Positions 11,796 to 42,487 of a stretch of 64,000 nt of DNA are shown here, in pieces. This DNA comes from Acidobacteriaceae bacterium. GTDB lineage: Bacteria > Acidobacteriota > Terriglobia > Terriglobales > Acidobacteriaceae. Below the pieces are notes generated by a model. It worked only from the letters and a program-made list of their open reading frames with translations, was not told the DNA's origin and did no database searches. The position numbers and the translations under genes are program-made. The stretch spans positions 1-64,000 of the forward strand of contig JANYBT010000044.1 in the NCBI GenBank assembly GCA_025360645.1, read 5' to 3'. Every line of letters begins with the position of its first letter. Positions within the stretch are counted from its first letter, which is position 1.

Positions 11796-11821
11796 TTGCC
11801 GCCAACAGAAAGGGGCGGCAA
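11796..11821 (-). terminator. Candidate rho-independent terminator
   Basis: Arms TTGCCGCC and GGCGGCAA with a 10-nt loop. On the minus strand the stem is followed by CTTTTGATTTTC. It lies about 217 bp after the stop of the 12038-16177 gene, and could end that transcript before the next paralogue begins. Confidence 0.45.
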
Positions 11822-12011
11822 GAGGTTACAACATCCCACGCTTCAACTGCGATGGTTCAATGTACCCTCTTGCTCCAAAGCTGGTCAACAAATATCTTCA
11901 CGAGCGGGTTCTGAGTAGGAAAACTTGTACACATTGGGACGGGTGGGCTGAGGACGGCACAGCAAGACCCGAGAGAGGACTGGGCAAGGGTGGGAGCCGG
12001 GCACGATGCGG

Positions 12012-12034
12012 CGGCCCCCGATGTTCTGGGGCCG
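12012..12034 (-). terminator. GC-rich hairpin directly after the beta-helix paralogue stop
   Basis: Arms CGGCCCC (12012-12018) and GGGGCCG (12028-12034), 9-nt loop, starting 3 bp after the stop codon at 12038. There is no T-tract on the minus strand, so it may act as an mRNA-stabilising hairpin and not as a terminator. Confidence 0.35.
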
Positions 12035-12037
12035 GGT

Positions 12038-15000: not shown

Positions 15001-16177
15001 GGGAAGTCTGATTGCAGGAATGGCTGGTGGTTACGGTCACCGGCCCCTCGTCTTTTTCGAAGAACAGTCCAGACAGGAAATTTCCGGTGAAAGTGGAACC
15101 GGAAACGGTGACGTTGGCGGTATCGGTATCCCAGTGGGCGCCGTACGTCAGATTGTAGGCGGAGGTCACGCCACTGATGGTGTCGTTGTGGTCCAGGTAG
15201 AAGTGGAATCCTGAAGTGTTGCAGCCGTAGTAAGAGCCCTGAGCCCCTTTCCAGTTGTTGAAGTTGGCCACGTCGTTTTGCCAGAAACCGTATTTGGTCT
15301 GGGATCCGGTGAACCCGCTGTCACCGTTGTGGTTCGCGGTGCTGTTCTGGACCGTGAACGTGGTGGCCGGATATGACATGGACAGGCCCTGGGCGTTGTT
15401 CCACACGAAGTTGTCGGAGTCGAACAGGATGTTGGTGGCGCTGCCATTGACGCTGACAGCAGCATTGTTGTGGCAGGAATTGGCATACTGAAACGTAATG
15501 CCGCGAATGACCCAGTTGGACTTGCCGAGGACGTGAAGGAGCAAAGGCTGGGTGGCGATTTCCACGGTGGCGGTGCTCATGTTGGTGCCCGAGGGCGGCC
15601 AGACGTAAACCAGACCACCAGACGCGTCAACGTAGAAGGTGCCAGGCTGCATCGCAGCGATGGACATCACCTGTGTCATGACCGTGCCGTTAACGGCGAT
15701 CAATTCCTGGCGAAGGGTAATATCCTGCTGGGAAGGGCAGGTGGCGAGTTGGGGACACAAGCTCCAATTGTAGTTCCAGGTGCTGGTGTAGACGCTTGTA
15801 TTCGAGGCGTACTTGGTCCAGCCGGTCTGAACCGTAGCACCGCTGAGGATGACAGTTCCGTTGGTGACCGCCTGCAAAGTGATGGGCAGGGAAGTGTCGC
15901 GCACGCTGTAGTCCACTTCCAGCGCCTCACGGTAGGTTCCCGGATTGACGTTGATTTGGGTGCCAATACCGTCCCAGTTACTGGCCACGGCGGCGCTCAG
16001 CGCAGCGCCAATGGTCTTCAGCGGCAATAGCTGAGTGCCGGGATTGGAATCCGAACCGATGGTTCCATCCACGTACAAAAATGCAGTTTCCAGACTTTCA
16101 TTCACGTTCGCCTGCGCCCAGCCTAAGGCCGACGCAAAGACCAACATGAGAAGGGGGAGGATAAATCTTTTTCTCAT
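12038..16177 (-). CDS. Secreted right-handed beta-helix protein with seven ASH/choice-of-anchor D modules
   Basis: A 1379-residue exported protein, paralogous over its full length to the 1596-residue neighbour. The signal peptide is MRKRFILPLLMLVFASALGWAQ. The beta-helix region starts with YVDGTIGSDSNPGTQLLPLKTI and keeps shared landmarks (AVNGTVMTQV, YVWPPSGTNM, GLFFEKDEGP, DNNTWWNA). An Ig-like segment (GTYPITVIGNNGSLTHTVTMSLVV) and seven ASH modules of about 100 residues follow. The 217-residue difference from its paralogue equals two modules, so the two genes differ mainly by module copy number. The ATG at 16177 is preceded by ACTCCCCC and lacks a Shine-Dalgarno, exactly as in the paralogue. 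Probably cell-surface or extracellular; substrate unknown. Confidence 0.85.
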   Translation of the reverse strand: MRKRFILPLLMLVFASALGWAQANVNESLETAFLYVDGTIGSDSNPGTQLLPLKTIGAALSAAVASNWDGIGTQINVNPGTYREALEVDYSVRDTSLPITLQAVTNGTVILSGATVQTGWTKYASNTSVYTSTWNYNWSLCPQLATCPSQQDITLRQELIAVNGTVMTQVMSIAAMQPGTFYVDASGGLVYVWPPSGTNMSTATVEIATQPLLLHVLGKSNWVIRGITFQYANSCHNNAAVSVNGSATNILFDSDNFVWNNAQGLSMSYPATTFTVQNSTANHNGDSGFTGSQTKYGFWQNDVANFNNWKGAQGSYYGCNTSGFHFYLDHNDTISGVTSAYNLTYGAHWDTDTANVTVSGSTFTGNFLSGLFFEKDEGPVTVTTSHSCNQTSPLSGAGLVIRNSEGITLSDSTLDNNLTAQITVIGTPGGISVTNWETLQVYNLIAQNFTNTNNVIQGTNSNQGVFQDSYLNGSDWTSFQSTLVSDNNTWWNASNTLTPFVVPTPIDASTVDLAGWQADTGQDTHSTFSAPATDPGAACNAISPDVADFWLTVDNGSLNSDASGQAVYNLTLTPLKFTGTVNLTLDGIAEVPGLSATLSPTSVTTSGSSVLTLSATAATTPGTYPITVIGNNGSLTHTVTMSLVVPTTSIRLSTASLTYGSQQQNTSSSPQTFTVTNTGKSSISLTSFTASQSFSQTNTCGTSLGAGKNCTVTVTFTPKAVGSINGTLTIVDADANSPQIVTMSGTGTAVPTVTLSKYSESFGTQGVNTTSATQTVTLTNTGTVTLNITSVVLGGSNSSSFAETNTCGSSVAAGATCDLNMTFTPTSTGSKSATVTVTDNTSNGAQAVTTTGTGVTVYPTVTLSAASVSYGNQLINATSAAQTVTLTNTGTVSLNIGSVKVGGANAGSFSQTNTCGSSVAAGSTCDISVTFSPTSTGSKSANVTINDNTANGAQSSTLSGTGTALSLSPTSLSFGSQLVGTKSSTQTITLTNNTNNSVSITSVTSSTNWTQTNTCGSSLAGNKTCTITVTFSPTAAGSLSGTVTIKDGDPGSPHTASLTGTGTSTPTVTLSSSAVAFGNQQINKTSATQTVTLTNTSTVSLSITSIALSGTDKSSFSETNTCGSSLAGGAVCNINLTFTPTTSGSKSATVTITDNTSSGSQTIALSGTGTAISLSPTSLTYGSQQVGTSSSTQTVTVTNNSSTSVSITSVTSSTNWTQTNTCGSSLAGNKTCTITVTFSPTTTGALTGTITLKDSDPASPQTVGLTGTGTASNPMVSLSSTSVNFGNQKKNTKSPPQTVTLTNTGGSTLDITSITLTGANKGSFIETTTCGSTVAAGGTCNFTLTFDPKSAATKSAVVTIFDNASGGSQTINLSGTGTK
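12041..14243 (-). repeat. Seven tandem ASH-module coding repeats
   Basis: Seven degenerate units of about 300 bp encode ASH modules, two fewer than in the neighbouring paralogue. Several neighbouring units share long near-identical stretches, for example the two modules containing TSSTNWTQTNTCGSSLAGNK, which suggests recent unequal recombination. Confidence 0.8.
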
Positions 16178-16554
16178 GGGGGAGTCTCAGTTTTTTTTAC
16201 GCGCCCTGGGGCAGCTTTCCCCCTGGGGGACACACCTATCCTGTCCTCCTTGCAATGTGACGATGAACGTGGCGTTTCTTGCTAGAACGGTGGCTTGCCA
16301 AACACAGGAACTGCTGACCTTTCCGCGGAATCGTTAAGAATCCTTGCGACTCTTCAACGTTCCGCCGAACCCCAGCAGCAGTACTCTGTGGCAAAATGAC
16401 GCGGAAAAAGGGAACATGATGTTGTTCCCCAAATTAAATAAAGTCTACCGTTTTCCGTCGACCCCCGTCAAGGGAAACCAAGGGTGGATGATTGTTTGTG
16501 GCGAAGTTTTAACAAATGAACCGTAACCGCTGTGAGGAGACTCGGTCTCCGTTG

Positions 16555-16594
16555 AAAAAAGAGACCGCGGGGTGTCTCGGGTACCCCGCGGTCT
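16555..16594 (-). terminator. Strong rho-independent terminator of the candidate small RNA
   Basis: A perfect 12-bp stem (arms 16562-16573 and 16583-16594, 9-nt loop) is followed on the minus strand by TTTTTT after CTC. The nearest minus-strand protein gene ends 365 bp upstream and has its own hairpin, so this terminator probably serves a separate RNA. Confidence 0.75.
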
Positions 16595-16796
16595 GAGCCC
16601 TGCTACTGCCATACAACTCCAGTTGCGAGCCGTCGAAACGGCATGCCCTGCCAGGTTCAGCGGGACGCAGATATTGTCGATCTCCAACCTCACCCACGCC
16701 CTGCGGGAGAGGCTTGACACGGAATTTAGCGCGTTGGTCAGAATCGCGCGATTGCCAATGCGGAAGTCCCTAATTGCAGAAGTCCGCCATCTTTGT
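16555..16796 (-). ncRNA. Candidate small structured RNA
   Basis: A stand-alone transcription unit of about 240 nt is bounded by a TTGACG-17-TAGATT promoter (16801-16829) and a strong terminator (16555-16594), with no credible ORF between them. The RNA would contain a UUCG-capped hairpin (GCCGT-TTCG-ACGGC), a CAAC-TGGA-GTTG hairpin and a 12-bp terminal stem. The size is near that of 6S RNA, but I cannot recognise the 6S consensus or any other Rfam family by eye. SRP RNA, tmRNA and RNase P motifs are absent. Confidence 0.4.
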
Positions 16797-16800
16797 AGTG

Positions 16801-16829
16801 AATCTATGCGGGCCGTGGGAGGGCGTCAA
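16801..16829 (-). promoter_or_regulatory. Promoter of the candidate small RNA
   Basis: On the minus strand TTGACG (16824-16829), a 17-nt spacer and TAGATT (16801-16806). It points into the ORF-free stretch that ends at the terminator 16555-16594. Confidence 0.5.
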
Positions 16830-16919
16830 GGATAAAAATTTATACACGAGCGAGGAACGAAGAAATGTCGGGGTCTGATGCGGAAAACGATTGAGATCTG
16901 GGTCTGAAGTGGAAATGGT

Positions 16920-16945
16920 GCGGTGCGAGCTGGAACCCGCACCGC
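16920..16945 (-). terminator. Hairpin after the PQQ-propeller/Ig gene
   Basis: Arms GCGGTGCG and CGCACCGC with a 10-nt loop, 15 bp after the stop codon at 16960. The minus-strand tail is only ACCATTTCC, so termination strength is uncertain. Confidence 0.5.
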
Positions 16946-16959
16946 AGTGTTTTTGAGAA

Positions 16960-19440
16960 CTACTGCACCGTTTCGGTGAATGTGACCGGGGTGAGACCGG
17001 TGGTTGTAGCGGTGATGCTAATGGTGCCGGGAGTCTGACCGGTGGTGTAGGTCACGCTGACTTGTCCCGAGGTGTTGGTCACCGGCGAGGTGTTCGAAAA
17101 CGTGCCACCCGCGCCGTTGTCGGAGAAAGTCACAGTGATGCCGGAGTTGCCATTGCCGTATTGGTCGGTAACCGAAACCACCAGGGCACGGGGCAGCACC
17201 TTGCCGTGGGTTGCGGTCTGGTTGTTGCCGCTGACGATGGTTTCGATCGCCGGGGCGGCGGCCACCGCTTGCTCCGAGAGCGTTGTGGAAAGCGAGCCTG
17301 CCGAACCCTTGACGACTGGGGAGCCTGCCTTGGTGGGCAGAGTGTAGGAAAAACTGACCTGTCCGTTGGAATTCGTGACCAGGGGATTGGCCGCGAAGCT
17401 TCCGCCGGCGCCACTGTCAGTAGCAGTGACGGTGACCCCCGGAACAACGTTGCCGTACACGTCTTTGACCCGGAATACCAAGCCTGCAGGCAGTGTGGTC
17501 CCGACCGTGCCCTTTTGTTTTCCACCCGAGACCACGGCCAGCGTCGATGGCGGGCCCGCCAATGCGGTCTCAGAGAAAGTTCCGGTGGTGAAGTTGGTCG
17601 CCTCAGCCGTGACGCCGTAGGAGCCGGGCAACGTCGGTAACGTGTAGGTGGTCGAGGCCAGACCATTGCTGTCTGTGACCGCCGTGGTAGTACTGAACTT
17701 GCCGCCCTTATTCCCGTCAGAAAAAGTAACGGTGATGCCGGGGATCGCAGCGCCGGTGTAGACGTTTTGAGCGGTGGTGGTGATGGCTTGAGGCAGGACG
17801 GTTCCGACGTTGGCAGTTTGAAGATTGCCCGAGGTCAAGGCCATGACCGGAAACAGACCGTACACCACCAGTTGGGTCTGGGCGGGCGTGTACACCCGGC
17901 CCGCCACGACCGTGGGGGTCGCGAAGTGGGCGATGTTGCCCAGGTTGTCGCGCGTGTAGGTGTTCGAGTTGTAGAGCTCATTCAAACCCAGTGCGGCATA
18001 GCCGCTCAGCACGGGCGCGGTCTTGACGGTGCGGATCAACCACACAATACCGTTGCTGGCGCCGTTTGCAGAAATGGAAGGCAGGCCCTGCGAAAAAATC
18101 TTGGCCGACCTGAACATGGCGGTGGTGGACAACTGTCCGTTGGTCAAGCTGAAGGCCTTGAAATTGTCCGAGCGACCGGCGTAATACACATAGCCGTTCC
18201 AATAGGCCGCATTGCCGTAGAGCTCGCCAGTGGCGCCGGTAACGTATTGCACAATCTGGCTGTTGCTGGTGGAGTTGTATTGGCCAAGGTTGTCACGGTT
18301 CACCAGGTAGAGGTTTCCCCCTTTGCCATTGGCGACCAGGAGGTGGGGATTAGCGCCCGATTGGTCGGGGAGCAAAGTGGGACCGCCGGAACCCAAATCC
18401 AGATCGTTCAGCGCCAGGTTGTTTTGATCGAAAGGCGTGAAGTAGTCCGTGGCGGTGGCTGTTCCTGCGCCGAACTTGATAATGCTGTCGCCGTAGTCGG
18501 GGCCCCCGGTGTTCGCATCGAAGACGCCATTCGCGCTGGACAAATAAATATTGCCGCTGCTGTCAGCTGCCGGCGCTACTCCGCTCTGCCAGAGCGAACT
18601 GCCGTAGGTGCCCATGGTCTGGGCGGCGAATACGCCCAACTGCTGCAAGGTGGACGCGCTGTACGACAACAGCCAGCCATAAGCGTTAAAGTCACAGCCA
18701 TTGGAACCGAAGGCGACGTAGACCTGGCCGTTGGTGAGAACGAGTCCGGGGCGCTGGAAGTGGTTCAGGATGTTGAGAGTGACGGTATTTCCACCCGCCG
18801 TGTACGAGGCAGAGATCGGTACAGGCCCGCCGAATTTTTCCGCGCCCGTGGTGACGTCGAGGGCGTGCAGGCGGAAATAGTAGGTGGTGGTGCCGCCCAC
18901 CACTTCCTTGGTCTTGGCCACGACGTAAAGGGTCTTGGTGGTACTGTCAATCACGGGTGTGCCAATGATGCCAACCTCGGTATACCCGTTGACGACGGGG
19001 CAGCCCTGGTCGGCGATGGGCACGGTGGTCACGCCGTTCGCCGAATTAATGAAAGTGGCTTGCCAGAGGGGTAAGGTGGTGTTGCCATCGGCGTCGAAGG
19101 CATAGACGCTATCGTGCTGGGTGGCCACGAACACTACGTTGTGCGTGCCTTGAGCTGGGATGCCCAGGTTGGGCAAGTAAAGAGGTTGGGACACGATGAA
19201 GCCGTCGACCGGGAAGGAAAAGACCTTTCCGAAGGAGCTGGCATTGACGTTGCTGGGAGTGAGAATCGTCTCGCTAGAGTTGAGGCCGTCCCGAGCATTA
19301 TCGTTGCGGTTGGTGGTAACGCTGACTTGGGCGTTGGCGGAAGGCAGACAGGGTAGGAACAAGGCCGGCACTACGACCGCAAGAGCGAAGAACCTTAACC
19401 ATGCGGGACGACCAATACGCGATTTACGCTCGTTGTTCAA
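16960..19440 (-). CDS. Secreted PQQ-type beta-propeller protein with three bacterial Ig-like (Big_1) domains
   Basis: An 826-residue exported protein with signal peptide MNNERKSRIGRPAWLRFFAL...ANAQ. Residues about 38-530 form a propeller with repeated strand motifs such as HDSVYAFDADG, LYVVAKTKEV, RLHALDVTTGAEKFGG and GNLYLVNRDNLGQY, resembling PQQ-binding-like (pyrrolo-quinoline quinone) repeats. No dehydrogenase active site was identified. Three invasin-type Ig-like repeats follow, each with the pattern VxDxYGNxxxGxxVTFSDxGxGGxF...TxxxGxxxxxYT. The start is TTG at 19440, supported by GAGGAG seven bases upstream. It probably acts at the cell surface or outside the cell; function unknown. Confidence 0.82.
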   Translation of the reverse strand: MNNERKSRIGRPAWLRFFALAVVVPALFLPCLPSANAQVSVTTNRNDNARDGLNSSETILTPSNVNASSFGKVFSFPVDGFIVSQPLYLPNLGIPAQGTHNVVFVATQHDSVYAFDADGNTTLPLWQATFINSANGVTTVPIADQGCPVVNGYTEVGIIGTPVIDSTTKTLYVVAKTKEVVGGTTTYYFRLHALDVTTGAEKFGGPVPISASYTAGGNTVTLNILNHFQRPGLVLTNGQVYVAFGSNGCDFNAYGWLLSYSASTLQQLGVFAAQTMGTYGSSLWQSGVAPAADSSGNIYLSSANGVFDANTGGPDYGDSIIKFGAGTATATDYFTPFDQNNLALNDLDLGSGGPTLLPDQSGANPHLLVANGKGGNLYLVNRDNLGQYNSTSNSQIVQYVTGATGELYGNAAYWNGYVYYAGRSDNFKAFSLTNGQLSTTAMFRSAKIFSQGLPSISANGASNGIVWLIRTVKTAPVLSGYAALGLNELYNSNTYTRDNLGNIAHFATPTVVAGRVYTPAQTQLVVYGLFPVMALTSGNLQTANVGTVLPQAITTTAQNVYTGAAIPGITVTFSDGNKGGKFSTTTAVTDSNGLASTTYTLPTLPGSYGVTAEATNFTTGTFSETALAGPPSTLAVVSGGKQKGTVGTTLPAGLVFRVKDVYGNVVPGVTVTATDSGAGGSFAANPLVTNSNGQVSFSYTLPTKAGSPVVKGSAGSLSTTLSEQAVAAAPAIETIVSGNNQTATHGKVLPRALVVSVTDQYGNGNSGITVTFSDNGAGGTFSNTSPVTNTSGQVSVTYTTGQTPGTISITATTTGLTPVTFTETVQ

Positions 19441-19721: not shown

Positions 19722-21641
19722 CTAGTGCTGTAAATACCACGACGTAGTAGAAGTATCGGTTTTGAAGTAGTTGAGCAAGTAGCTGGCAACCTTGATCTTG
19801 CCAGTGGTTGCGGGATGGGTGCCGTCTTTGGAAGAATCCTGACAGGACCACACTAGTCCGTCCTTCCGTCCGAGCAAGCCATTGGTCCAGTCGTAGGGTC
19901 CCCAAATGATCAAGGGTGCGACCACCGTGCCGTTGCTGCTCTTGTAGTTGAGGTTGTTCAAGCCATTGACCTGGTCCTGAATCGCCCATTTGACGGCGTA
20001 CCCGACTTCGAAAGCGTAGGGTTCCGGATTCACCGTGGAAATTCCGTTGGAATAGCCGGCATAGAAACGGCTGGTAAAATAAGCGATTTTAATTTTGGGG
20101 AACAGAGTGTAGATGTTGCGAGCCATCTGTTCGTATTCGGACTGCAAGTTGGTGATGTCGGCGGGGAAAGTGCCGCTGGCAATGCCATCGGTGGTTTCCA
20201 CCCACACCGCTTGCACCTGGTTTGGGGTGACGCTGGCCCCGGGCAGATAGTCATTCAGGATCGTGGTCCAATAGGCGGAAGTGGTCAGTTGGAAGTTCTT
20301 CGGGGTTGCGCCACCCTGAGCTCCGTTCACGATTACCAGGCTCTTGTTCTTCTGGGGATCGGCGTTAGCCAATTGCACGAACTGCCCAAATTCATCCAGG
20401 GCAGTGGATTCTCCGATGCTGAGGAGAACGATCTTGCCGGTGGTGCTGGGATTGCCGTTGGAATCGAGGGGAGTGATCGCGTTGCCGAACGCGACTGCGT
20501 CGGCATCGGTGGTCGCCGGACGTACATTGCTTCCGTTGGGGTAGAGTCCGCCTTGGGAACCTTGATACGTGCCCACGCCCAGGTCGGTGAGGGGAACGAT
20601 CGGCGTCGTGGTGCTTGGGATGTTGAAGGAAATGTTGCTGCAGGCGGCGCCTGTAGCGGCGAAGACGGGAAATGTGAAGGTCTTGCTGCCGGCAACGCCT
20701 TTGCCGTCCTTAACGTTGATGGTGAAAGTGTAATTGCCTGTGCCCACCGAAACGTCCAGCGTCCCACTGAGCAAGCCCTTACTGGTGCCCTTGATGCCCT
20801 TGGGCAGTGCCGACCCAGTGGCCAGGCTGTAGGTGTAGGGATTGACCCCTCCCGTGCCATTGAGTTGGACTTGGTATGCAGAGCTCTGGGTGGCGGCGGG
20901 GAGCAACGCCAAGTTGGTGATGGCCACTGAGGTGGCTGCGATGCCCGTGCCGTTGAGATCGGAAGCGTTGTCGGGAACGGAGTCGTAGGTGAGATCCAGA
21001 ACCGCGGTGTCAGACTCCACGCCGGTCGGACTGTAGGTGATGGTCAGCGGAAACGAGGCCCCGGCATTAATGGTCGCAGGGAGGGTGGAGGAGGTGACAG
21101 CGAAATTCGCAGTCTGCGGCGTGACGGACTGCAATGACAGGCTCTGTCCGCCCGTGTTCGTCACATTCAGGATCTGGCTGGCGCTGATGGATCCCACTGT
21201 GGTGTTTCCAAAATTCACCGCAGTGGAACTCAGGCTGGCGGCGGCCGTAGTGAGCTTCCCGGTCCCCGTCAGGGGTACCACTGTGGTCACGCCGGTATTG
21301 TCCAGCAAATTCATATTGCAATTGAAGGTGGTGCCGGAGTCGGGCGCAAATTGCACCGAATAGTGGGTAAAGCCGCCGTTGGCCTTGACGGTTTCAGGCG
21401 CTACGCCGGAAGTCAGTTGGAACTGAGGGCAGATCAGAGTGATGGTTCGAATGGTGAGGTTGACCGCCCCGCTGTTGGTAACCGTAAAAGCTTTGGTGCC
21501 GCTCACTTTGCCCACGTAGGTGGCACTATACGTGTAGGAGGAAGGAGATACGGTGATGACCTGGGCTCGCGCCACGGGCGAGAGGAAACTGAATACGACG
21601 GAAAGCAGAGCCGCAGAGCTCGCCGAAAAGAAAGTTTTCAT
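19722..21641 (-). CDS. Secreted ASH/Ig protein with a C-terminal SGNH-hydrolase-like domain (copy A)
   Basis: 639 residues from the ATG at 21641, which has GAGGTGGG upstream and a signal peptide MKTFFSASSAALLSVVFSFL...ARAQ. Domain order: two ASH-type domains (about 28-230), a putative Ig domain of the He_PIG kind (about 235-330), then a roughly 300-residue C-terminal domain. That domain carries LLSIGES (Ser412), NGAQGGA, AVWVETTDG and DGTHP (Asp606, His609), which match in order and spacing the catalytic Ser, the Gly block and the Asp-x-x-His block of SGNH/GDSL hydrolases. The match is inference from motifs; Asn of block III is not obvious. A tandem paralogue lies directly upstream and two more are at 38482-42487. 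Confidence 0.7.
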   Translation of the reverse strand: MKTFFSASSAALLSVVFSFLSPVARAQVITVSPSSYTYSATYVGKVSGTKAFTVTNSGAVNLTIRTITLICPQFQLTSGVAPETVKANGGFTHYSVQFAPDSGTTFNCNMNLLDNTGVTTVVPLTGTGKLTTAAASLSSTAVNFGNTTVGSISASQILNVTNTGGQSLSLQSVTPQTANFAVTSSTLPATINAGASFPLTITYSPTGVESDTAVLDLTYDSVPDNASDLNGTGIAATSVAITNLALLPAATQSSAYQVQLNGTGGVNPYTYSLATGSALPKGIKGTSKGLLSGTLDVSVGTGNYTFTINVKDGKGVAGSKTFTFPVFAATGAACSNISFNIPSTTTPIVPLTDLGVGTYQGSQGGLYPNGSNVRPATTDADAVAFGNAITPLDSNGNPSTTGKIVLLSIGESTALDEFGQFVQLANADPQKNKSLVIVNGAQGGATPKNFQLTTSAYWTTILNDYLPGASVTPNQVQAVWVETTDGIASGTFPADITNLQSEYEQMARNIYTLFPKIKIAYFTSRFYAGYSNGISTVNPEPYAFEVGYAVKWAIQDQVNGLNNLNYKSSNGTVVAPLIIWGPYDWTNGLLGRKDGLVWSCQDSSKDGTHPATTGKIKVASYLLNYFKTDTSTTSWYLQH

Positions 21642-21722
21642 GACCCACCTCAATTGGAGTTTGCAAAACTGTTGGTTCTCTATCGCCCCTGTGATCGAGA
21701 CCGCGGATCGGATGCAGCGGCC

Positions 21723-21740
21723 CCGCCTTCAAGAAGGCGG
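21723..21740 (-). terminator. Candidate hairpin upstream of SGNH-like copy A
   Basis: Arms CCGCCTTC and GAAGGCGG separated by two bases, located between the two SGNH-like paralogues and about 40 bp after copy B's stop. There is no T-tract, so function as a terminator is uncertain. Confidence 0.35.
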
Positions 21741-21779
21741 AGGGAATACTCCCCCGCCCTCCCACTGATGTCGTTTGGT

Positions 21780-23726
21780 TTACTTCGTTTCTGGAGCGTT
21801 GAACCCCGGGGCTTTGAACCACGGCGTTGCCGAAGTGTCGCTCTTAAAATAATTCAGGAGCTGATTGGCCACTTTCTGCTGCCCGGTGGGTTTCGAAGGA
21901 TGGGTTCCATCCGAAGAGACATCCTGGCAGGTCCATACCAACCCATCCTGACGGCCGAGCAGGCCGTCGGTCCAGTCGTACGGGCCCCAAATCATCAGGG
22001 GCGCAACGACGGTGCCACTGCTGCCTTTGTAATTGAGATTGTTTACGCCATTGATCTGATCTTGGATCGCCCACTTGACCGCGAATCCAACCTCGTAAGC
22101 ATACGGTTCCGGATTGACCGTGGAAACGCCGTTGGAATAGCCCGCGTAAAAGCGGCTGGAGAAATATGCCAACGAAGCATTCGGAAACAGAACGTGAACG
22201 TTACGTGCCATTTGTTCATACTCGCTGTAAAGAGTGTTGATGTCGGTGGGGAAGGTTCCGCTAGCGATGCCGTCGGTGTCCTCAATCCAAACCGCGGTGA
22301 CTTGATAGGAGGTGACGTTGGCGCCGGGTAGGTAGTCCTTCAGGATAGTAGACCAATACGCCGAAGTAAGCGATTGGAAGTTGGCTGGCGTCGCGCCCCC
22401 CTGAGAGCCATTCACCAGCACCAGGTTTGCGTTCTTGGAGGGGTCGGAATTGGCTAGGGAGACGAATTGTCCAAACTCGTCGAGCGCCGTGGACTCGCCC
22501 ACGCTGAGCAGCACGTACTTGCCGGTAGGACTGGGGTTGCCATTGGCATCCAGAGGCTGAATTGCCTTCCCGAACGCGACCGCGTCGGCATCGGTTTGGG
22601 CAGGCCGCAGGTTACTTCCACCGGGATACAGTCCGCCCTGCGATCCCTGATAGGTGCCGGCGCCCAGGTCGGTCAGCGGCGTAATCGGGGTGGTGGTCTT
22701 CGGAACATTGAACGAGATGTTATTGCATGCTGAACCGGTTTTGGCCGCGACGGTAACGGTGAACGCTTTGCTGGAACTCTGGAGCTGCGCGTCAGTTACG
22801 TTGATGGTGAAGGAGTAGGTGCCGATGCCGACGGAGGTCGCAAGGGTCCCGGTGATCGCTCCAGAGCTGGAGAGGCTGAGCCCCGAGGGGAGGGTAGATC
22901 CGGATGCCAACGAAAATGTAAAGGGGGCGGTGCCGCCGTTCGCCTGCAGGTTGGCTTGGTAGGCGGAACTCTGTGTGGCCGTCGGCAAGACGCTGAAGGT
23001 TGCGATGTCCACCGGCACGGAAGCGACCCCCGTGCCACTCAGGTTGACCCCGTTCATGGGAATCGAGTCGTAAGTGAAACTGAGGACTCCAGTGTCCGAC
23101 CGAACAGCAGTAGGAGAGTAAGTCACGGTGAAGGGAACGGTGTCGCCCGCGCGCACGGTCAGCGGCAAGGCTGGACCGGTGGCCGCGAAGTTGGCGGGCA
23201 CGGTGACGAATCCGGTCAAGTTCATCTTTTGGGTGCCGGAGTTGTGCAGGTTGACGGTGAGAGCGGAGGTGGTAGTTCCCACGGCGTCATTGCCGAACGC
23301 CAGCGTGGTCTGATCCAGGGAGGAGGCGGCATTGGTCAACTTGCCGGTGCCGATAAGGTTCACGTTGGTGATGCTGAAGTCATTCAGCTCAACCACCATG
23401 TTGCAGTTGTAGACCAGGCCTGCGTCGGGCGCGAAGAACACGGAGTAATGGGTGGTGCCGCCGTTGGCTTTAATGGTGGTGGGAGCGACTCCCGACGCCA
23501 ACTTAAATTCCGGGCAGGAGAAAGTGATGCTGATCACGGTCACGTTGGCTGTCCCGTTGTTGGTCACTGTGAAGGCTGTCGAGGCGGACGCCAAGCCAAC
23601 GTAGGTTGCGGTGAAGGTGTGTCCCACAGGTTTCACCGAAATGGACGCCGTGGCTGGAGTAGCCAAAACGACGCCCAGAAGGCATCCCACAATGATACGG
23701 ACAGCATTTTTCGAAACCATTGGCAT
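21780..23726 (-). CDS. Secreted ASH/Ig protein with a C-terminal SGNH-hydrolase-like domain (copy B)
   Basis: 648 residues, closely related to copy A downstream. The ATG at 23726 follows GGAG after AAA, and another in-frame ATG lies at 23720. The signal peptide is MPMVSKNAVRIIVGCLLGVVLATPATA. Two ASH-type domains (FTATYVGLASASTAFTVTN and TTLAFGNDAVG regions) are followed by a He_PIG-like Ig domain (AYQANLQANGGTAPFTFSLA) and the same C-terminal domain with LSVGES, NGSQGGA, AVWIEDTDG and DGTHPS motifs. The conserved strip NPEPYAYEVGFAVKWAIQDQ is shared by the whole family and looks like a structural or substrate-binding element. Probably an exported esterase- or deacetylase-like enzyme, by motif only. 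Confidence 0.7.
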   Translation of the reverse strand: MPMVSKNAVRIIVGCLLGVVLATPATASISVKPVGHTFTATYVGLASASTAFTVTNNGTANVTVISITFSCPEFKLASGVAPTTIKANGGTTHYSVFFAPDAGLVYNCNMVVELNDFSITNVNLIGTGKLTNAASSLDQTTLAFGNDAVGTTTSALTVNLHNSGTQKMNLTGFVTVPANFAATGPALPLTVRAGDTVPFTVTYSPTAVRSDTGVLSFTYDSIPMNGVNLSGTGVASVPVDIATFSVLPTATQSSAYQANLQANGGTAPFTFSLASGSTLPSGLSLSSSGAITGTLATSVGIGTYSFTINVTDAQLQSSSKAFTVTVAAKTGSACNNISFNVPKTTTPITPLTDLGAGTYQGSQGGLYPGGSNLRPAQTDADAVAFGKAIQPLDANGNPSPTGKYVLLSVGESTALDEFGQFVSLANSDPSKNANLVLVNGSQGGATPANFQSLTSAYWSTILKDYLPGANVTSYQVTAVWIEDTDGIASGTFPTDINTLYSEYEQMARNVHVLFPNASLAYFSSRFYAGYSNGVSTVNPEPYAYEVGFAVKWAIQDQINGVNNLNYKGSSGTVVAPLMIWGPYDWTDGLLGRQDGLVWTCQDVSSDGTHPSKPTGQQKVANQLLNYFKSDTSATPWFKAPGFNAPETK

Positions 23727-23768: not shown

Positions 23769-25016
23769 TTACCGTGAAAAAAGTTCTACCTCTCGTGCCA
23801 TGTTCAATATTTCTCGACCAATGGGGAGAGAGGCAGTTGCGGCGGGGGAAGGACAATTTAGTATATGAAGAAACCGGCCGCAAGGCAAGAAATTAAAATC
23901 GTCCACCAGGGAGCCGTCCAGACGGATGGCCTGGGCGCGAACCCCAGCACCGCCCGGCCGCAGGTCTGCCGGCTTTAGTTCCGGAACCAACCGTTGCAGG
24001 GAACGAAGAAAGGCGGATTTGCTTAGGGATCGCCCGAATTCGCCGACCCCATAGCGCCAGTTCCTGAGGGCGAGACGGCGAAAGCCAGCTGAGCCGACAC
24101 TCTCCAGAACGTCTTGGGCGTTGAAGTCGCTGCGTTGGTAGCCCTCGCGGTCGAAAGCGAAGACTGCGTTGGGACCGGCGTCCACTCCGCCGTGGACGCG
24201 GCGAGTCAAGTGCACGCCCAGGAAAGGAAATCGCGGATCGGGAACGGGGTAGATGAGGCCGCGCACCAGGGACTCCCGCTCCGGGATGAGGTCGTAATAC
24301 TCCCCGCGGAAGGGGACGATCAGGACATCCGGCTGGTGGCCTGCCAGGCGCGCGATGCGATCACTGTACAGCCCGGCGCAGTTGACCACCGCTCGGGTCG
24401 CGAAACTTCCTCGCGTGGTCAGGACCGTGACTTGGGAACCGTCCTGTCGAAAGCCTGTGACGCGGGCTCCCGTCACCAGCGTCGCTCCCTGCGCCATCGC
24501 AAGTTCCGCATACTTCGCGGAGACTTGAGCGTAGCCCGTAATTCCGGTACCGGGCACCCATAGCGCGCGAAGCCCTTCGCAGGCGGGTTCGATTTGCTTC
24601 ATCTCGGATGGGTCAAGCAGGCGCAGACCGATAAGCCCGTTGGCCTGGCCGCGTTGCCACAAGTCGTCAAGCCGGGGAACTTCCTGCTCACGCGTGGCCA
24701 CAATGAGTTTGCCGCACCGGGCATAGGGGATGGAGTGCTCGTGGCAGAACTCTGCCATGGCGCGAGCTCCTTCCACGCACAGCTTGGCCTTCAGTGAGCC
24801 GGGTTGGTAGTAGACGCCGGAGTGGACGACCCCGCTGTTGTGGCCGCTTTGGTGGCGAGCGACTCCCTCTTCCTTTTCTAGAATGAGCAGGCGCAGGCCC
24901 GGCAAGTCACGCACCGCTTGCATGGCAAAGGAAAGGCCCACAATGCCAGCGCCGATCACGGCGACGTCGTAGCCAGTGGAGCTTTTCGGCGCGGGATGTG
25001 GATCGGACAAAGACAA
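23769..25016 (-). CDS. lhgO: L-2-hydroxyglutarate oxidase (FAD-dependent)
   Basis: About 415 residues in the DAO/L2HGDH fold. The N-terminal VAVIGAGIVGLSFA is the FAD-binding GxGxxG motif. RHQSGHNSGVVHSGVYYQPGS and PFRGEYY are signatures of LhgO, which oxidises L-2-hydroxyglutarate to 2-oxoglutarate and passes electrons to the membrane quinone pool. The long open frame continues upstream into the neighbouring gene, so the start must lie below 25127. TTG at 25016 was chosen (TTG at 25010 is equivalent) with a weak GGTGGAAG upstream; the start is uncertain. It is a housekeeping-type metabolic gene placed among secreted-protein genes with no visible functional link. Confidence 0.85.
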   Translation of the reverse strand: MSLSDPHPAPKSSTGYDVAVIGAGIVGLSFAMQAVRDLPGLRLLILEKEEGVARHQSGHNSGVVHSGVYYQPGSLKAKLCVEGARAMAEFCHEHSIPYARCGKLIVATREQEVPRLDDLWQRGQANGLIGLRLLDPSEMKQIEPACEGLRALWVPGTGITGYAQVSAKYAELAMAQGATLVTGARVTGFRQDGSQVTVLTTRGSFATRAVVNCAGLYSDRIARLAGHQPDVLIVPFRGEYYDLIPERESLVRGLIYPVPDPRFPFLGVHLTRRVHGGVDAGPNAVFAFDREGYQRSDFNAQDVLESVGSAGFRRLALRNWRYGVGEFGRSLSKSAFLRSLQRLVPELKPADLRPGGAGVRAQAIRLDGSLVDDFNFLPCGRFLHILNCPSPAATASLPIGREILNMAREVELFSR

Positions 25017-25093
25017 GAGGGAAGACTGAGCGCTTCCACCCCGATCTTCCCGGAACCAGCCGGAGTTCGAGGCGCTCAGGAAATTGGTGAAAC

Positions 25094-25115
25094 GGGGAGC
25101 GAGTGTGCGCTCCCC
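25094..25115 (-). terminator. Hairpin after the BNR-propeller gene
   Basis: Arms GGGGAGCG and CGCTCCCC with a 6-nt loop, 11 bp after the stop codon at 25127. The minus-strand tail GTTTCACC is only moderately T-rich. It lies just before the presumed lhgO start. Confidence 0.55.
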
Positions 25116-25126
25116 ATCCAGTTTTC

Positions 25127-28100
25127 TTACATCACCGTCAGGGTCACTGTCGTGGTGTGCGTGACCCCCCCACCGGTGGCTGAGATCGTGACCGTGTAGG
25201 TCCCGGCTGCGGTCTGCTGCGTTAGCATCACTGCGGCCGAAGCCGATTTCGTTGTGTCCGCCTGCGATACCGCGGTGACCGAGACAGTTGCCGGAGTCGG
25301 TACCACCGTTGGCGGTGTATAGAGACCAGCGGTTGTGATGGTGCCTACGGTGGCATTGCCTCCCACCACCCCCGCCACTTCCCAATTCACCGCCGTGTTG
25401 GTGGTGTTGGTGACCGTCGCAGTGAACTGCTTGGTCTGCGTGGTGAACAAGGTGGCGGTTGTGGGGGTGATGGTGACCGCTACTGCCGGCGGCGGCGGAG
25501 GCGTGCTGTTGCTGGAACCACAAGCCGGCAACAGAATGAGGGGCGCGATCATCAGCGTCAGCATGAGCAGCGTTGCCCCGGTTCGGCGGCGAAGCGGCGC
25601 GCTGAAGAATATCCCGAACGCCAGTCCGAAAGCCGACATCACCAGCGCCAGCGGAGTGTGATCCGGTTGCGTACTGGCGGTGGGGACGATCCGGTTGGAG
25701 GCGTTGGGTCCATTCGTGCTGATGGTGAGCACGCTCGCGGTTCCACCCGGAGTGACGGTCGTCGGGTTGAACAAGCACGCCGCCCCGGCGGGAAGACCCG
25801 CGGTGCATGACAGAGTCACTGTGTTGGTGTTGGCGCCTCCGACGGACGCAGCCGTCACGTTGTAGCTGGCGGATTGTCCCGCGCTGACCGTGCCTTTGAT
25901 CACGCTGGTTCCCACGCTAAAGTCCGGCAGGGAAGTGAAGACCAGCGCAGCAGAATGGGTGGTTTTCGCGGTGTCGGTTCCGGTGGCGACGATATTGAAA
26001 GTCGTGGTTCGCTCGGAGGTGTCGCCGAGAGTGACGGTGAAGGTTGCGCCCACCGCGGTCGGCGTGACCGAAGACGGCGAGATGCTGCAGGTGGCCGGGT
26101 GTCCAGAGCCGCAGGTCAGGGTTACCGCGCTGCTGTAGGAGTTGATGGAAGTCAGCGTACCCGTAACCGTCGTGGTTTGATTGACCACTGCGGAAGGAGT
26201 ACCGCTGTTCAACAGCAAGGTGAAGTCCGCAACCGGTGAGGTCACATTCGCGGTGAAGGTCCTGGTCTTGGCCGAAGGATCCCCAGAGGTGGTGCCCGAG
26301 ACGGTGATTGTCGAATTCCCCAGGGTGGCGCCCGCAGCCGCAGTGATGGTCAAGGTGACGGTGACCGGTACGGTTGCAGTTGGGCTGACCGAAGCGCTGG
26401 GCGAGAAGTTGCAAGTGATGGTGGACGAACCCGCGCAGGCGAGTGCGACCGCGCCGTTAAACGACCCGGCAGCCGTCACTTGGAAGGTGCTGGAGGCCGT
26501 CGAAGTTGTGCCCTGCTGCACCTTGATGGTGCCCGGCGAGATCGCGGCCAAGTCAAAGTCCACTACGTGCAGCACGACCGCGGCATCGTGCACGGTGTTG
26601 CCGGTGTCGGAACCCACTCCGTGAACGTTGAAGTTGTAGTCGCCGGCCGTGCCCTTGGCGGTGACCGTGTAGGTTGCGCCCCCCGCCGTGGGGGTCAGTT
26701 TGGCTGGGGCCACCGAGCAAGTGCTGGGAAGCGGATTAGGATTGCCAACGCAACTCAGTGTCACCTGGCTGTTGTAGCTGTTGAGTGAAGTCAGCGTGCC
26801 GCTGAACGAAGCGGTCTGCGTGGGAAACATGGTCTGCGGCGAGTTGGAAACTGCGTTGGTGTAATCGGCGGAGGCCAGCAGATTGAATTCCCAGATACCG
26901 CGACCATACGTGGAAGCGCGCAACCTCTTCATCCCGGTCGTCTGGAAAATACGCAAAGCTGTCACCGGTGCGTTGGGCAGGTATCCGACTGCGCCCGGCG
27001 CTGGAATCGGACCGACTTCGGTCCAGGCTGGGGTCGTCCCAGTAGTCGGACTCACAAAGATGCCGACATCGGTGCCGACGTAGACGTTGGTGGCTTGCGA
27101 GTCCACCACCAGAGAGTTGACCGGCGCATCGGGTAGCGTTCCTGTCCAGTTGACCCAGGTTCCGCCCGCGTCGGTAGTCTTGAATACATGGCCCACGCCG
27201 AAGCCCATGATGCCCACATAGGCGGTTTTGCCAGTGGCATCGGACTGATCCATCGCAACCGTGGGAATGGGGAAGAATCCGGGATTGATGGAGCCGGTAA
27301 CGGCATTGAACGTCGAGGTGCCCCCCGCAGCGTTGGTGGTGACAAAAACGTTTCCGCCCACGCTGGTCAAACTGCCTGTCCCATCGGTGGTGGCCCACAC
27401 CACATTGGAGAAGCCGTTTGTGTCTTTCGGTCCACCGGCGTCCAGGCCGTGCACCAGATTGATTTCATTGCCGAAGCACCTGAAACCCGTTCCGTCAAAG
27501 TAGTCGCTCAATGCGGTAAACGCACCGCCGCCCAATCGCGGTCCCCGCCATACCCGGCAGGTGCCAATCAGAATAGCCGTAGTGGACTGCGGGTCCAGAA
27601 TATAGGGGAAGTAAAACGCACCATCGTCGCCAGCCAGATCGGTGCTGGAAATTACAGGATTCCAACTGTTTTGGCTGCAGGCAGCGCCGGCGGAGCAGTT
27701 ATTGATAACGAGGCTGCCATTGCCGCCGTCGGGGTTCGAGGTGAACCAACTGGATCCCGAGTTGGGGTCAATGGCATTGAAGCCGCCATCCCCGCCCAGC
27801 ACATTCAGCCAGCTGGTCTTGCTTCCCGCCGAAGCGGTTCCGGGAGAGCCGTTGTCTTGCGTGCCTCCCAACAATTGCGCCGGATCGGTGGGGTGAACCG
27901 AGAACGAAACGAACTCAGTCATGGAACCCAGAGTGGTGTTCAGACTGTCAAATTGATTGCTGCCAGTGCAGGCCCCGGTGGTCAGGTCCGTGAAGCCGTC
28001 GAGGGTGCGATAGATGCCGCCGTCATTCGCGAAATAACCGATCGCCTTGCCGCTGGCGATCATGAAATCCAGATGGTGCTGGTCCGGGTGCACATGCGCG

Positions 28101-38481: not shown

Positions 38482-40431
38482 TTACCGGCCCGCGCTCGGC
38501 TTCTTCTCGGCGGGTGCGAGGAACCACGGCGATGCCGTATCGTCGGTTTCCAGAAAGTTCAGCAACAGGTAGGCAGTTTTCGCTCTTCCTCCCGGATTCG
38601 AGGGATGCGTACCGTCCGCCATATAGTCCTGGCACGACCAGCTCAGGCCGTCACTTCGTGCCAGCAAGCCGTTGGCCCACAGGTAGGGGCCCCAGGTCAG
38701 CCACGGCGCTTTCACCGTGCCCTTGGTAAGATCGTAGTTCAAGTTGGGGTCGCCGTTGATTTGGTCTTGAATCAGGTTCTTGACCGCGAACCCGGACTCG
38801 TAGGCATAGGGTTCGGGGTTCAAGTTCGTAACCTGATTCGAATATCCCGCGTAGTTGAAACTGGAAAAATAGGCGATCTTGATGTTGGGAAATTTCGTAA
38901 GCAGGTTTTGCGCGATCGAGGCATACTCCGACTGCAGCGTCGACATGTCGCTGGGAAAAACTCCGGTGGGGGATCCGTCTGAGTCATTGACCCAGGCCGC
39001 GACAATCTGTTGCGGAGTCAGGCCGACATTCGGTATGTAAGCATTCAGAATGTTGGTCCAAAACGAACTATTGACTTGCGACATCTGGTAAGCCGTTGCG
39101 CCACCCTGACCGCCATTGACCAGCACCAGCGCGGCGTTCTTGTTGAAATCGGAATTCGCCAGACTCAAGAATTCGATGAATGGCTGTTCGGTCGTGGAAA
39201 CTCCGACCGCCACCAGTCCATATTTCCCTGTGGTGCTGGGATTTCCGTTTCCGTCCAGCGGCTGAATTTGCTGGGCCAGCGAAACTCCGTAGGCGTCATT
39301 GTCCGCGGGTCGGACATTACTGCCGTTGGCGAACAATCCCCCAGTCTCGCTGCCTAAGTAATAGGCGGTCCCCAGATCCGTCAAAGGCACCAGGGGGTTG
39401 ATGGAGCCGGCAATGTTGTAGGAGATGGTGTTGCAAGACGCCCCGGAAGACTTGTCCACCGGAAGCGTGAAGTTCTGCGATACAGTGTTAGGCGGGACGG
39501 CGGAATCCGTGGCCTTAGAGGTGAAAAAATAATTCCCAGGAGTCACACTGCTCGAAACCGTGCCGTTAATCAATCCGCTGCTGTTGACGGCGAGACCCGA
39601 GGGCAACTTGGAATTGGTAGCCAAAGTCCAGGACACACTGCCCACGCCCTGCGTCGTTGCCAACTGAACCAGGTAGTTCGCCGCTTGGGTCGCCGCCGGC
39701 AGAGTGGGAAAATTGGTAATCCCGAACCTGGTGGTCGCCACGCCGGCCCCACTCAGTGAAACCGCGCTGTCGGCGACCACGTCATAGCTGAATACGACAT
39801 TGCCTTTGGCCGTCGCTACGTTCTGCGAACTGAATCGGATTGGGAGCGTGAACGACTGACCCTTGTTCAGTTGCACATTCTTGGTGAATGCCGATTGCAG
39901 GAACGGCGGAGAGTCGATGGCTACATTGATAATCGTGAAGCCCTGGGTTCCGGTGTTCGTGATTTGTACGTTCTTGGGGCCGCCAATGCTGCCCAGCGCC
40001 ACGTTCCCAAAATCCAACGAACTGGGCGTCACCGTGGCAATGGCATTGGGATTGGTCCCCGTCCCGGTCACCGTCACGCTCTTGGCTGCCTGTCCGGTGA
40101 CGGCAAACGTGATCGTGCCGGTGATTTGTTTGGCCGCGCTTGGGGTGAAGGTAAATCCGTAGGCGTAGGTTTGTCCCGCGGCGATATTCACCGGTACCGT
40201 GCCGCTCGCCAACTGAAAGTCGCTGGGAGTGACGGTCACCATCGTCACTGACGCCGTCGATGTGCCCAAATTAGTGATGATGATCGACTGCGTACTGGAG
40301 GCAACGCCCTGCGCCTGCTTGCCGAAGTCAAGTGTCGCAGGGACCAGCCCTACTGAAATATCTGCCGCCGCCCTGCTGTGCATAGCAAGGACGACCAGCA
40401 CACAAGCCAACGAAGAAGTGAGCTTTGTCAT
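38482..40431 (-). CDS. Secreted ASH/Ig protein with a C-terminal SGNH-hydrolase-like domain (copy C)
   Basis: 649 residues from the ATG at 40431 (a TTG at 40449 is the alternative). The signal peptide is MTKLTSSLACVLVVLAMHSRAAA. Two ASH-type domains open with ATLDFGKQAQGVASSTQSI and SSLDFGNVALGSIGGPKNV. A He_PIG-like Ig domain (ANYLVQLATTQGVGSVSWTLA) and the family's C-terminal domain follow, with AVGVS, NGGQGGA, AAWVNDSDG and DGTHPS in the same order as copies A and B. GES has become GVS, but the presumed nucleophilic Ser, the Gly block and the Asp-x-x-His are kept. It forms a tandem pair with copy D. Confidence 0.7.
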   Translation of the reverse strand: MTKLTSSLACVLVVLAMHSRAAADISVGLVPATLDFGKQAQGVASSTQSIIITNLGTSTASVTMVTVTPSDFQLASGTVPVNIAAGQTYAYGFTFTPSAAKQITGTITFAVTGQAAKSVTVTGTGTNPNAIATVTPSSLDFGNVALGSIGGPKNVQITNTGTQGFTIINVAIDSPPFLQSAFTKNVQLNKGQSFTLPIRFSSQNVATAKGNVVFSYDVVADSAVSLSGAGVATTRFGITNFPTLPAATQAANYLVQLATTQGVGSVSWTLATNSKLPSGLAVNSSGLINGTVSSSVTPGNYFFTSKATDSAVPPNTVSQNFTLPVDKSSGASCNTISYNIAGSINPLVPLTDLGTAYYLGSETGGLFANGSNVRPADNDAYGVSLAQQIQPLDGNGNPSTTGKYGLVAVGVSTTEQPFIEFLSLANSDFNKNAALVLVNGGQGGATAYQMSQVNSSFWTNILNAYIPNVGLTPQQIVAAWVNDSDGSPTGVFPSDMSTLQSEYASIAQNLLTKFPNIKIAYFSSFNYAGYSNQVTNLNPEPYAYESGFAVKNLIQDQINGDPNLNYDLTKGTVKAPWLTWGPYLWANGLLARSDGLSWSCQDYMADGTHPSNPGGRAKTAYLLLNFLETDDTASPWFLAPAEKKPSAGR

Positions 40432-40525
40432 AGTCTCGCGAAGAAACAAATTCGCAGAACGGCACTTCTAGCATCTCACCATACTTGGGTTGAGGGAAGG
40501 CGGAGGAGGTCTTGGCGAACCACGA

Positions 40526-42487
40526 CTATCGATGACTACTCTGGTTCCGGCGGCTTCCCGGCTTCACGAACCAGGGGTTGGTGGTGTCGTCATTCTTGAA
40601 GAAATTCAGCATCATTTGCGCGGCCTTCTCGCGACCCAGCGGCGAGGAGGGATGGGTGCCGTCGGCTTTGTAGTCCTGGCAGGTCCACACCAATCCATCG
40701 CTGCGCGCCAGTAGTCCATTGGCCCAGAAATACGGGCCCCACGACATCCAGGGCGCGACCACCGATCCTTTGGAGGGATCGAAATTCAGGTTGGCGTTGC
40801 CGTTCAACTGGTCCTGGATCGCGTTCTTTACCGCGAACCCCGACTCGTAGGCATACGGCTCCGGATCCAGGTTGCCGATTCCATTCGAGTAGCCCTGGTA
40901 GTTGTTGCTGGTCATGTACATAAACTTCACGTTCGGGAACTTGGTCAAAACCAACTGAGCGATGGTCTCGTACTCGGACTGCAAGGCGGTCATGTCGCTC
41001 GGGAAGGTTCCCGAGGGGCCGCCATCCACCGTATCAAACCACACCGCAACCACCTGGTTCGCAGTGACCCCGGCGTTCAGTAACAGGCTGGAACCGATGT
41101 TGTTCCAGAAAAAGTTTGTCGGATTCGAGAGCTGATTGGCGGTGGCTCCTCCCTGCGCCCCATTGACGAGAATGAGCTTCGAGTTCTTTTCCGGATCGGC
41201 GTTGGCCAGGGTCAGAAACTCGGCCGACTGGTATTCAGTGATGGAAAGGCCGAGAGTGAGCAGCGCATAATTCCCGCTGGGACTGGGGTTGCCGTAATAG
41301 TCCAGCGCTTGAATGCCGTCGGCCAGATTCACGCCGTAGGCGTCGTGGTCGGCCGGGCGGGCGTTGGCCCCGTTCGCGTACAGCCCGCCAGACTCCGCAC
41401 CCAGGTATAGGTTCGAGCCTAGGTCAATCAAGGGCACCAGTGGATTGCTGCTGCCTGCAACGTTCCAGGAAATGTTCGGGCAATTCGCCCCCGGGGCAGC
41501 GCCCACCGGCAGGTTTAATTCCTCAGTTGCGGGGACCGATGGTTTGGACGAGTCGGTACCCTGTACCGTAAAAGTGTAGGTGCCTGTAGCCACGGTGGAC
41601 CCCACCGTTCCGCTGATCAGTCCTCCATTCGAGAGGGTCAATCCCGAGGGCAGACTCGACCCCGGCTGCAGCGCCCATGTGATGGCTCCCCTTCCTCCAG
41701 CTGACAACATGGTCGCTTGGTACGGGGCGCCTTGCGTGGCATAGGGCAAGACCGGATAAGTGCTGACCCCGAATTTGAACGGCGCGACCCCGGTTCCGGT
41801 GAGATCCACCGCTTGATTGGGCAACGTGTCATATGTCAGCAGCACCGATCCCGTCATTGAGCCCAAGGCTTGGGGAATAAACGTGACTGGTAGAGTGAAG
41901 GAGTTGCCTGGGCCAATTTTCGTAGTGCCGGTGAACCCCGTCACATTGTACGGAGGACCCGTGAAATCCACTCGCGTCAGTTTGAGCGAGCTGGTCCCGC
42001 TGTTGGTGATGACGATGTTCTGCGAGGCGCTCTGCGTCCCCAGCGGCTGGCCTGAAAACGTAAGCGACGTCAGGTTCAATGTCGAAGCCGCTGCGGTGTT
42101 CTTTCCATTGCCGTTCAGCGCCACAGTATGGGTCGCGATTCCAGAATCGAAAGTAACCGTAAACGTATCGGTAAACTGTTGCGCGATATCTGGTGTAAAA
42201 ACGATCGCAAAATACGCCGCTTTCCCCGGCGCCAGCAGCGTTGGCGCTCCGCTCGTGATCTGAAATTCTGATAGCGCGGTGCTCACGCTGGTGATGCTGA
42301 AACTTTTGGTGCCAGTGTTGGTGACCAGAACCAGGTGGGGAGTGCTGGCGACATGGAGCTGCGAACTTCCGAAGCCAATTTGAATTGGTACCACTCCCAC
42401 TGTCGCGGCGCCCGAGGAAATAGGCGCTTCTGCCAGGAAAACGAAAAAGATGCAGGAAAAGAACCCCAGGCGCTTGATTCTGTTCAA
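40526..42487 (-). CDS. Secreted ASH/Ig protein with a C-terminal SGNH-hydrolase-like domain (copy D)
   Basis: 653 residues. The start is TTG at 42487, supported by GTGGAG seven bases upstream and a signal peptide MNRIKRLGFFSCIFFVFLAEAPISSGA. Two ASH-type domains (IGFGSSQLHVASTPHLVLV, LTFSGQPLGTQSASQNIVI), a He_PIG-like Ig domain (YQATMLSAGGRGAITWAL) and the C-terminal domain with TLGLS, NGAQGGA, AVWFDTVDG and DGTHPSS follow. NPEPYAYESGFAVKN and IQDQ are shared with the other copies. The family may hydrolyse acyl or acetyl esters on an extracellular polymer; this is motif-based inference only. Confidence 0.7.
   Translation of the reverse strand: MNRIKRLGFFSCIFFVFLAEAPISSGAATVGVVPIQIGFGSSQLHVASTPHLVLVTNTGTKSFSITSVSTALSEFQITSGAPTLLAPGKAAYFAIVFTPDIAQQFTDTFTVTFDSGIATHTVALNGNGKNTAAASTLNLTSLTFSGQPLGTQSASQNIVITNSGTSSLKLTRVDFTGPPYNVTGFTGTTKIGPGNSFTLPVTFIPQALGSMTGSVLLTYDTLPNQAVDLTGTGVAPFKFGVSTYPVLPYATQGAPYQATMLSAGGRGAITWALQPGSSLPSGLTLSNGGLISGTVGSTVATGTYTFTVQGTDSSKPSVPATEELNLPVGAAPGANCPNISWNVAGSSNPLVPLIDLGSNLYLGAESGGLYANGANARPADHDAYGVNLADGIQALDYYGNPSPSGNYALLTLGLSITEYQSAEFLTLANADPEKNSKLILVNGAQGGATANQLSNPTNFFWNNIGSSLLLNAGVTANQVVAVWFDTVDGGPSGTFPSDMTALQSEYETIAQLVLTKFPNVKFMYMTSNNYQGYSNGIGNLDPEPYAYESGFAVKNAIQDQLNGNANLNFDPSKGSVVAPWMSWGPYFWANGLLARSDGLVWTCQDYKADGTHPSSPLGREKAAQMMLNFFKNDDTTNPWFVKPGSRRNQSSHR

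Follow-up and report, generated by a model that had tools for sequence, protein, structure and literature searches.

Introduction

Sixteen SGNH families were counted in a 2022 review, in which the oxyanion hole of SASA is defined by the block III HQGE motif together with a Gln beside the Ser, and in which SASA, AlgX, PatB1 and XOAT1 all do without the block III Asn and use other donors (PMC9487903). Could further families of this superfamily (CL0264) then be present in proteins that are currently named only by their other domains? Here, we analyse a stretch of 64,000 nucleotides from an Acidobacteriaceae bacterium (assembly GCA_025360645.1, contig JANYBT010000044.1, positions 1 to 64,000 of the forward strand), hereafter the window, which encodes two secreted proteins in tandem, copies A and B. 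Their C-terminal domain of about 300 amino acids probably represents an SGNH family that has not been catalogued, and most likely works as a secreted serine esterase or transferase of acyl groups, carried on a stalk of Ig and ASH modules. The assignment is based on a conserved Ser, Asp and His in the order typical of SGNH enzymes, the predicted fold and the profile similarity to Lipase_GDSL.

It is a new family within a known superfamily and not a new kind of system, and no description of it was found in an incomplete literature collection. The interest lies in annotation and in the oxyanion hole. A family missed by the domain libraries, including proteins named only by their stalk, can now be given a probable fold, nucleophile and type of reaction; its probable ester-cutting or acyl-moving enzymes are currently filed as "hypothetical" or "choice-of-anchor" proteins. 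The family is also a suitable object for studying how SGNH enzymes work without the block III Asn.

Architecture and sequence conservation

Copies A and B are encoded on the minus strand at 19722..21653 (643 amino acids) and 21780..23726 (648 amino acids), respectively, as the tandem open reading frames described by an earlier reading of the same DNA made from the letters only (the sequence-only reading). Both consist of a Sec-type signal peptide (by inspection), the Ig/ASH modules and the C-terminal domain, which spans 19725..20651 in copy A and 21798..22736 in copy B. The Pfam and NCBIfam matches, that is, ASH/HYDIN, He_PIG and choice-of-anchor D, are confined to the first 330 residues or so (the He_PIG Ig domain of copy B lies at residues 246-327), while the last 300 residues match no Pfam or NCBIfam model. 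It had been expected that the C-terminal region would escape the libraries and that such proteins would be labelled only choice-of-anchor, and this is indeed the case: the choice-of-anchor D/ASH models (PF15780, PF22544, NF012200) that are shared with the N-terminal half of these proteins span the stalk alone.

A second tandem pair is found on the same strand of the window, with the same architecture and an overall identity to copy B of just 44%: copy C (38482..40449, 655 amino acids; Ser418, Asp612, His615) and copy D (40526..42487, 653 amino acids; Ser415, Asp609, His612). According to Pfam, the stalks of copies A to D are alike, with two ASH-type and one Ig-type modules. Beyond the window, contigs C123 and C96 of the same genome each carry a further copy and contig C14 carries a fragment, so that the genome has no fewer than six full copies in addition to the fragment. 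Between copies A and B, the C-terminal domain is 77% identical and the stalk 49%, and the corresponding values for copies C and D are 61% and 37%. In addition, the nonsynonymous divergence (dN) between the domains of A and B is 0.17, whereas the synonymous divergence (dS) is near saturation. Therefore, the C-terminal domain is the most strongly constrained part of these proteins.

The motifs GxS, NGxQGGA, WxxxxDG, PEPYA and DGTHP, which the sequence-only reading had named, all occur in both copies and in the stated order. The putative nucleophile is Ser416 in copy A (GES, codon at 20406..20408) and Ser412 in copy B (codon at 22491..22493). NGxQGGA begins at residue 443 in A and 439 in B, PEPYA at 543 and 539, and DGTHP at 610 and 606; the block V DGTH is thus encoded at 19815..19826 in copy A (Asp610, His613) and at 21900..21911 in copy B (Asp606, His609), all on the minus strand. 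These motifs are not a product of chance: the domain is under the constraint described above, and divergent members found in other families of the phylum, on Streptomyces plasmids and on viral contigs have the same residues.

Residues were counted in an alignment of 29 members, 28 of which could be scored for the Asp and the His. The Ser of GxS is invariant (29/29); the relatives outside the window are 23-57% identical to copy B. The block V His is present in 28/28 and the Asp in 27/28, with Glu in the remaining row (ExxH). Also invariant among the scorable rows are the W, G, Y and W of WGPYxW, an Asp preceding the DxxH loop, and a Lys and a Trp following it.

The strip beginning PEPYAYE (22086..22112, minus strand, in copy B) had been described as very conserved and without counterpart in classic SGNH enzymes. 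It is absent from the GDSL profile, as claimed, and the E and P of PEP are kept in 27/29 members; however, two Streptomyces members lack it as well, so that it is a lineage element outside the core catalytic set. As these two members retain Ser, Asp and His, the strip more likely helps to form the substrate site, or a loop with a structural role, than the triad.

Profile comparison and predicted fold

Searches of Pfam, NCBIfam, PHROGs and the PDB sequences, with single members as well as with the family profile, gave no significant domain match. The best Pfam hit was to Lipase_GDSL/GDSL_2 with an E-value of 0.029, below the gathering cut-off, in 2/25 members and in none of the window copies. 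A family profile of 28 members was then compared by hhalign with target profiles built from the relatives' genomes. Against Lipase_GDSL (PF00657) it scored 39.5 (probability 63%, P = 7e-5), and the alignment covered the region from GxS to DGTHP in register, pairing GES with GDS, NGSQGG with block II, WIEDTDG with block III and DGTHPS with the DxxHP of the template. The exact Gly position of block II receives A, S or G in this alignment, and NGxQGG follows strand 2. The score was 28.7 against GDSL_2, and 14.1 and 15.9 against the unrelated abhydrolase and SDR folds. None of the column-shuffled controls (40 per target, 120 in all) exceeded 18.3, the reversed-profile controls gave 13, 19 and 24, and unrelated folds compared with GDSL gave 21-22; as a yardstick, the true superfamily pair of SASA and GDSL scored 50. 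Since 39.5 exceeds the shuffled, reversed and unrelated-fold controls, the similarity to Lipase_GDSL is credible, and it most likely reflects true homology that sequence profiles can barely detect.

The fold of the copy B domain was predicted twice with AlphaFold. The first model, based on five close sequences, was poor, with a mean predicted local distance difference test (pLDDT) of 49.8, and its Foldseek list, in which RecA-type folds were mixed, could not be interpreted. For the second model the alignment was widened by four divergent viral relatives, and the confidence was moderate (pLDDT 71.7, predicted template modelling score 0.78). Its elements are a strand at 73-81 followed by Ser82 (Ser412 of copy B), a helix at 82-96, strand 105-109, helix 126-138, strand 146-152, helix 166-183, strand 189-193, helix 213-228, the DxxH loop and a final helix at 283-299. 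This order matches the SGNH alpha/beta/alpha arrangement, and the domain is predicted to adopt a three-layer alpha/beta/alpha SGNH fold. Confidence is low for residues 1-34, 197-211 and 252-271, and consequently neither the PEP strip nor the block V loop can be read reliably in detail from this model.

With the second model, ranks 1-5 of the Foldseek list were all SGNH enzymes (E-values 6e-3 to 2e-2), and the list includes PatB and the acetyltransferase domain of a Salmonella lipopolysaccharide (LPS) enzyme. In a second structural alignment, the top match was PatB (8tlb), with Z = 10.4 and a root mean square deviation of 4.2 over 189 residues at 9% identity. CE2 esterases followed at Z = 10.2-10.3, then CE3, PAF-AH, TesA, RGAE and sialate esterases, with row 50 at Z = 8.1; 69 chains reached Z >= 8, and the rows listed are mostly SGNH-fold esterases or O-acetyltransferases by title or known family. 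Ser82 of the model falls opposite Ser10 of the CE3 enzyme 5b5l, whose title names S10A, assuming no gaps before the start of the aligned range. The superposition ranges agree with the proximity of Ser, Asp and His, with the block V loop at low confidence. A search of BFVD gave no match at E < 0.001; among the entries returned were tail proteins of phages and others with lipase, esterase or SGNH in the name. The outcome that would have spoken against the sequence-only reading, a predicted fold unrelated to SGNH, was thus not obtained.

Several points weigh against the assignment. No Foldseek match of the second model has an E-value below 0.001, and the mean pLDDT of the block V loop is only 40 for residues 251-270 and 55 for residues 271-280. 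The equation of the motifs with SGNH blocks I, II, (III) and V holds only in part: blocks I and V stand in register in the profile alignment, with Ser, Asp and His conserved, but the block III Asn is not kept, being present in 4/29 members (D 12, N 4, V 4, T 3, R 2, E and others at this position). In the window copies, block I reads GEST, GVST or GLSI, with T or I in place of the usual N after the Ser of the family GMSN, and E, D or N replaces the usual K of the WxK strip; a lower or shifted activity of this sub-family is possible from these residues. The score against SASA, 21.3, is at background (reversed profile 23.8), and by itself this profile score would be no evidence of homology. Finally, the neighbouring genes vary from genome to genome and yield no evidence on the substrate.

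Relation to known families and proposed mechanism

The family resembles Lipase_GDSL (PF00657) and GDSL_2 (PF13472) in the block order, the Ser after strand 1, the block V Asp and His three residues apart near the C-terminus, and the fold. It differs from them in having GxSN or GxST instead of GDSL, in the absence of a conserved block III Asn, and in a long stretch, PEPYAYE...WGPYxWxDG...DGLxW, which separates strand 4 from the DxxH loop. The carbohydrate esterases CE2, CE3 and CE12 (2wao, 5b5s, 3c1u) share the fold and the triad at Z = 8.5-10.3, but the aligned identity is about 10%, and the block III Asn and the block layout are different.

With SASA/CE6 (PF03629), the family has in common the GxSN after strand 1 in most relatives and the absence of the block III Asn, and CE6/SASA-type structures were matched at Z = 8.1-8.7. 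However, it has no block III HQGE, and a Gln stands beside the Ser only in the paralogue on contig C96 (L033, G000:C96:8335-9255), whose block I, GQSN, is SASA-esterase-like and unlike the GEST, GVST and GLSI of the window copies. Membership in SASA, which the GxSN had prompted, was rejected, as hhalign remained at background and no QGE occurs in any member shown. The loss of the block III Asn is no bar to membership in the superfamily, since the accepted families SASA, AlgX and XOAT1 also lack it.

By the chemistry of the superfamily, Ser412 of copy B, activated by His609 and Asp606, would attack an acyl ester to give an acyl-enzyme, whose acyl group would then be transferred to water (in an esterase) or to the hydroxyl of an acceptor (in an acyltransferase). 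Through the Sec signal and the two ASH-type and one Ig-type modules, the catalytic head would be presented on a stalk and outside the cytoplasm. The stalk, as proposed earlier, fits the Pfam architecture of copies A to D, although it is not general, for most relatives outside this group have no ASH modules. The most likely substrate would be an O-acylated polysaccharide or a cell-envelope glycan.

Without a conserved Asn in block III, and with neither HQGE nor, except in one paralogue, a Gln beside the Ser, the family would need other donors for its oxyanion hole. We tentatively suggest, at somewhat short of an even chance, that this is a structurally distinct SGNH family of Acidobacteriota, Streptomyces plasmids and viral contigs with novel oxyanion residues, lacking both the block III Asn and QGE, and with a substrate new for SGNH enzymes; candidates for these residues are the WxK strip, PEPYAYE and the Asn that follows the Ser. 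As the searches of the window's genome with the Lipase_GDSL, GDSL_2 and SASA models gave no match, the family may also be the main set of secreted SGNH-type enzymes in this genome.

Alternative explanations

The first alternative keeps the SGNH fold and the triad, but takes the domain for an O-acyltransferase that acylates glycans of the surface or the envelope, in the manner of PatB, OatA and OafB. PatB/DUF459 peptidoglycan O-acetyltransferases likewise have an extracytoplasmic SGNH head, and it is PatB that heads the structural alignment and appears, with the Salmonella LPS acetyltransferase domain, in the Foldseek list; the missing block III Asn also recalls transferases that do not use one, XOAT1 and PatB1 (PMC9487903). 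However, triad and fold cannot separate the two activities, and the esterases that follow PatB differ from it by less than 1 in Z, so that either water or a glycan hydroxyl may be the acceptor. Moreover, PatB has 9% identity and no sequence match, and neither a PatA-like nor an MBOAT/AT3 partner occurs among the window genes scanned, the rest of the genome not having been searched for the latter. We consider this alternative unlikely.

It is quite unlikely that the window copies have little or no catalytic activity, that is, that they are an SGNH-fold head for glycan binding or adhesion whose activity was lost in an expanded sub-family. The presence of six full copies in one genome and the changes in blocks I and III (GEST, GVST and GLSI for GMSN; E, D and N for K) would fit such a loss, and CE2 esterases are known to combine binding with catalysis (PMC2661963). 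Nevertheless, every window copy retains Ser, Asp and His, and in both tandem pairs the domain has diverged far less than the stalk, with dN well below dS.

A convergent motif order on another alpha/beta fold unrelated to SGNH, for which the lack of a significant Pfam, NCBIfam or PDB sequence match and the poor first model with its RecA-type hits could be cited, is very improbable and already disfavoured by the Lipase_GDSL score of 39.5 against a maximum of about 18 in 120 shuffles and by the SGNH-like second model and its structural alignment.

Distribution and gene neighbourhoods

With the copy B domain as query, relatives were found in 7/100 genomes of the taxonomic family, and with an alignment of 14 members in 15/297 sampled genomes of the phylum. 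One relative comes from a metagenome-assembled genome of Candidatus Sulfotelmatobacter (Acidobacteriota). In many relatives from the phylum, the domain occurs without ASH modules, either as the only domain after a signal peptide or combined with further modules at the C-terminus. Outside the phylum, Streptomyces plasmids carry relatives at 48% identity, annotated as "hypothetical protein", and four divergent members are present on IMG/VR viral contigs (L058, L060, L086 and L092). The search of annotated phage records found no homologue.

Visual inspection of the genes around eight relatives, with a scan of a few neighbours, revealed no shared partner. On one viral contig (L060:9062-12246), the family gene, without an obvious signal peptide, overlaps the start of the gene for a 778-amino-acid protein with an M23-peptidase domain, which suggests a joint role on the cell wall. 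Another viral member (L095:1040-5816) lies near glycosyltransferase and GtrB-like O-antigen conversion genes. The M23 overlap and the nearby glycosyltransferases point to envelope or surface glycans, and are the only hints to the substrate.

In the window, copy A is flanked on the same strand by a run of secreted proteins of very large size, rich in ASH/HYDIN or Big_1 repeats (6834-19440), and a weak beta-helix match is found within this run (12038-16177). On the other side of the pair, a frame resembling an FAD protein of the L-2-hydroxyglutarate oxidase type (23769-25808, start sites provisional) overlaps in another frame the end of a secreted protein of 1476 amino acids (25127-29557). On two Streptomyces plasmids (L235:5902-7527 and L236:5891-7464), the homologue is followed in both cases by a carboxymuconolactone decarboxylase or peroxidase-related gene, and on one of them it lies near gamma-butyrolactone regulator genes.

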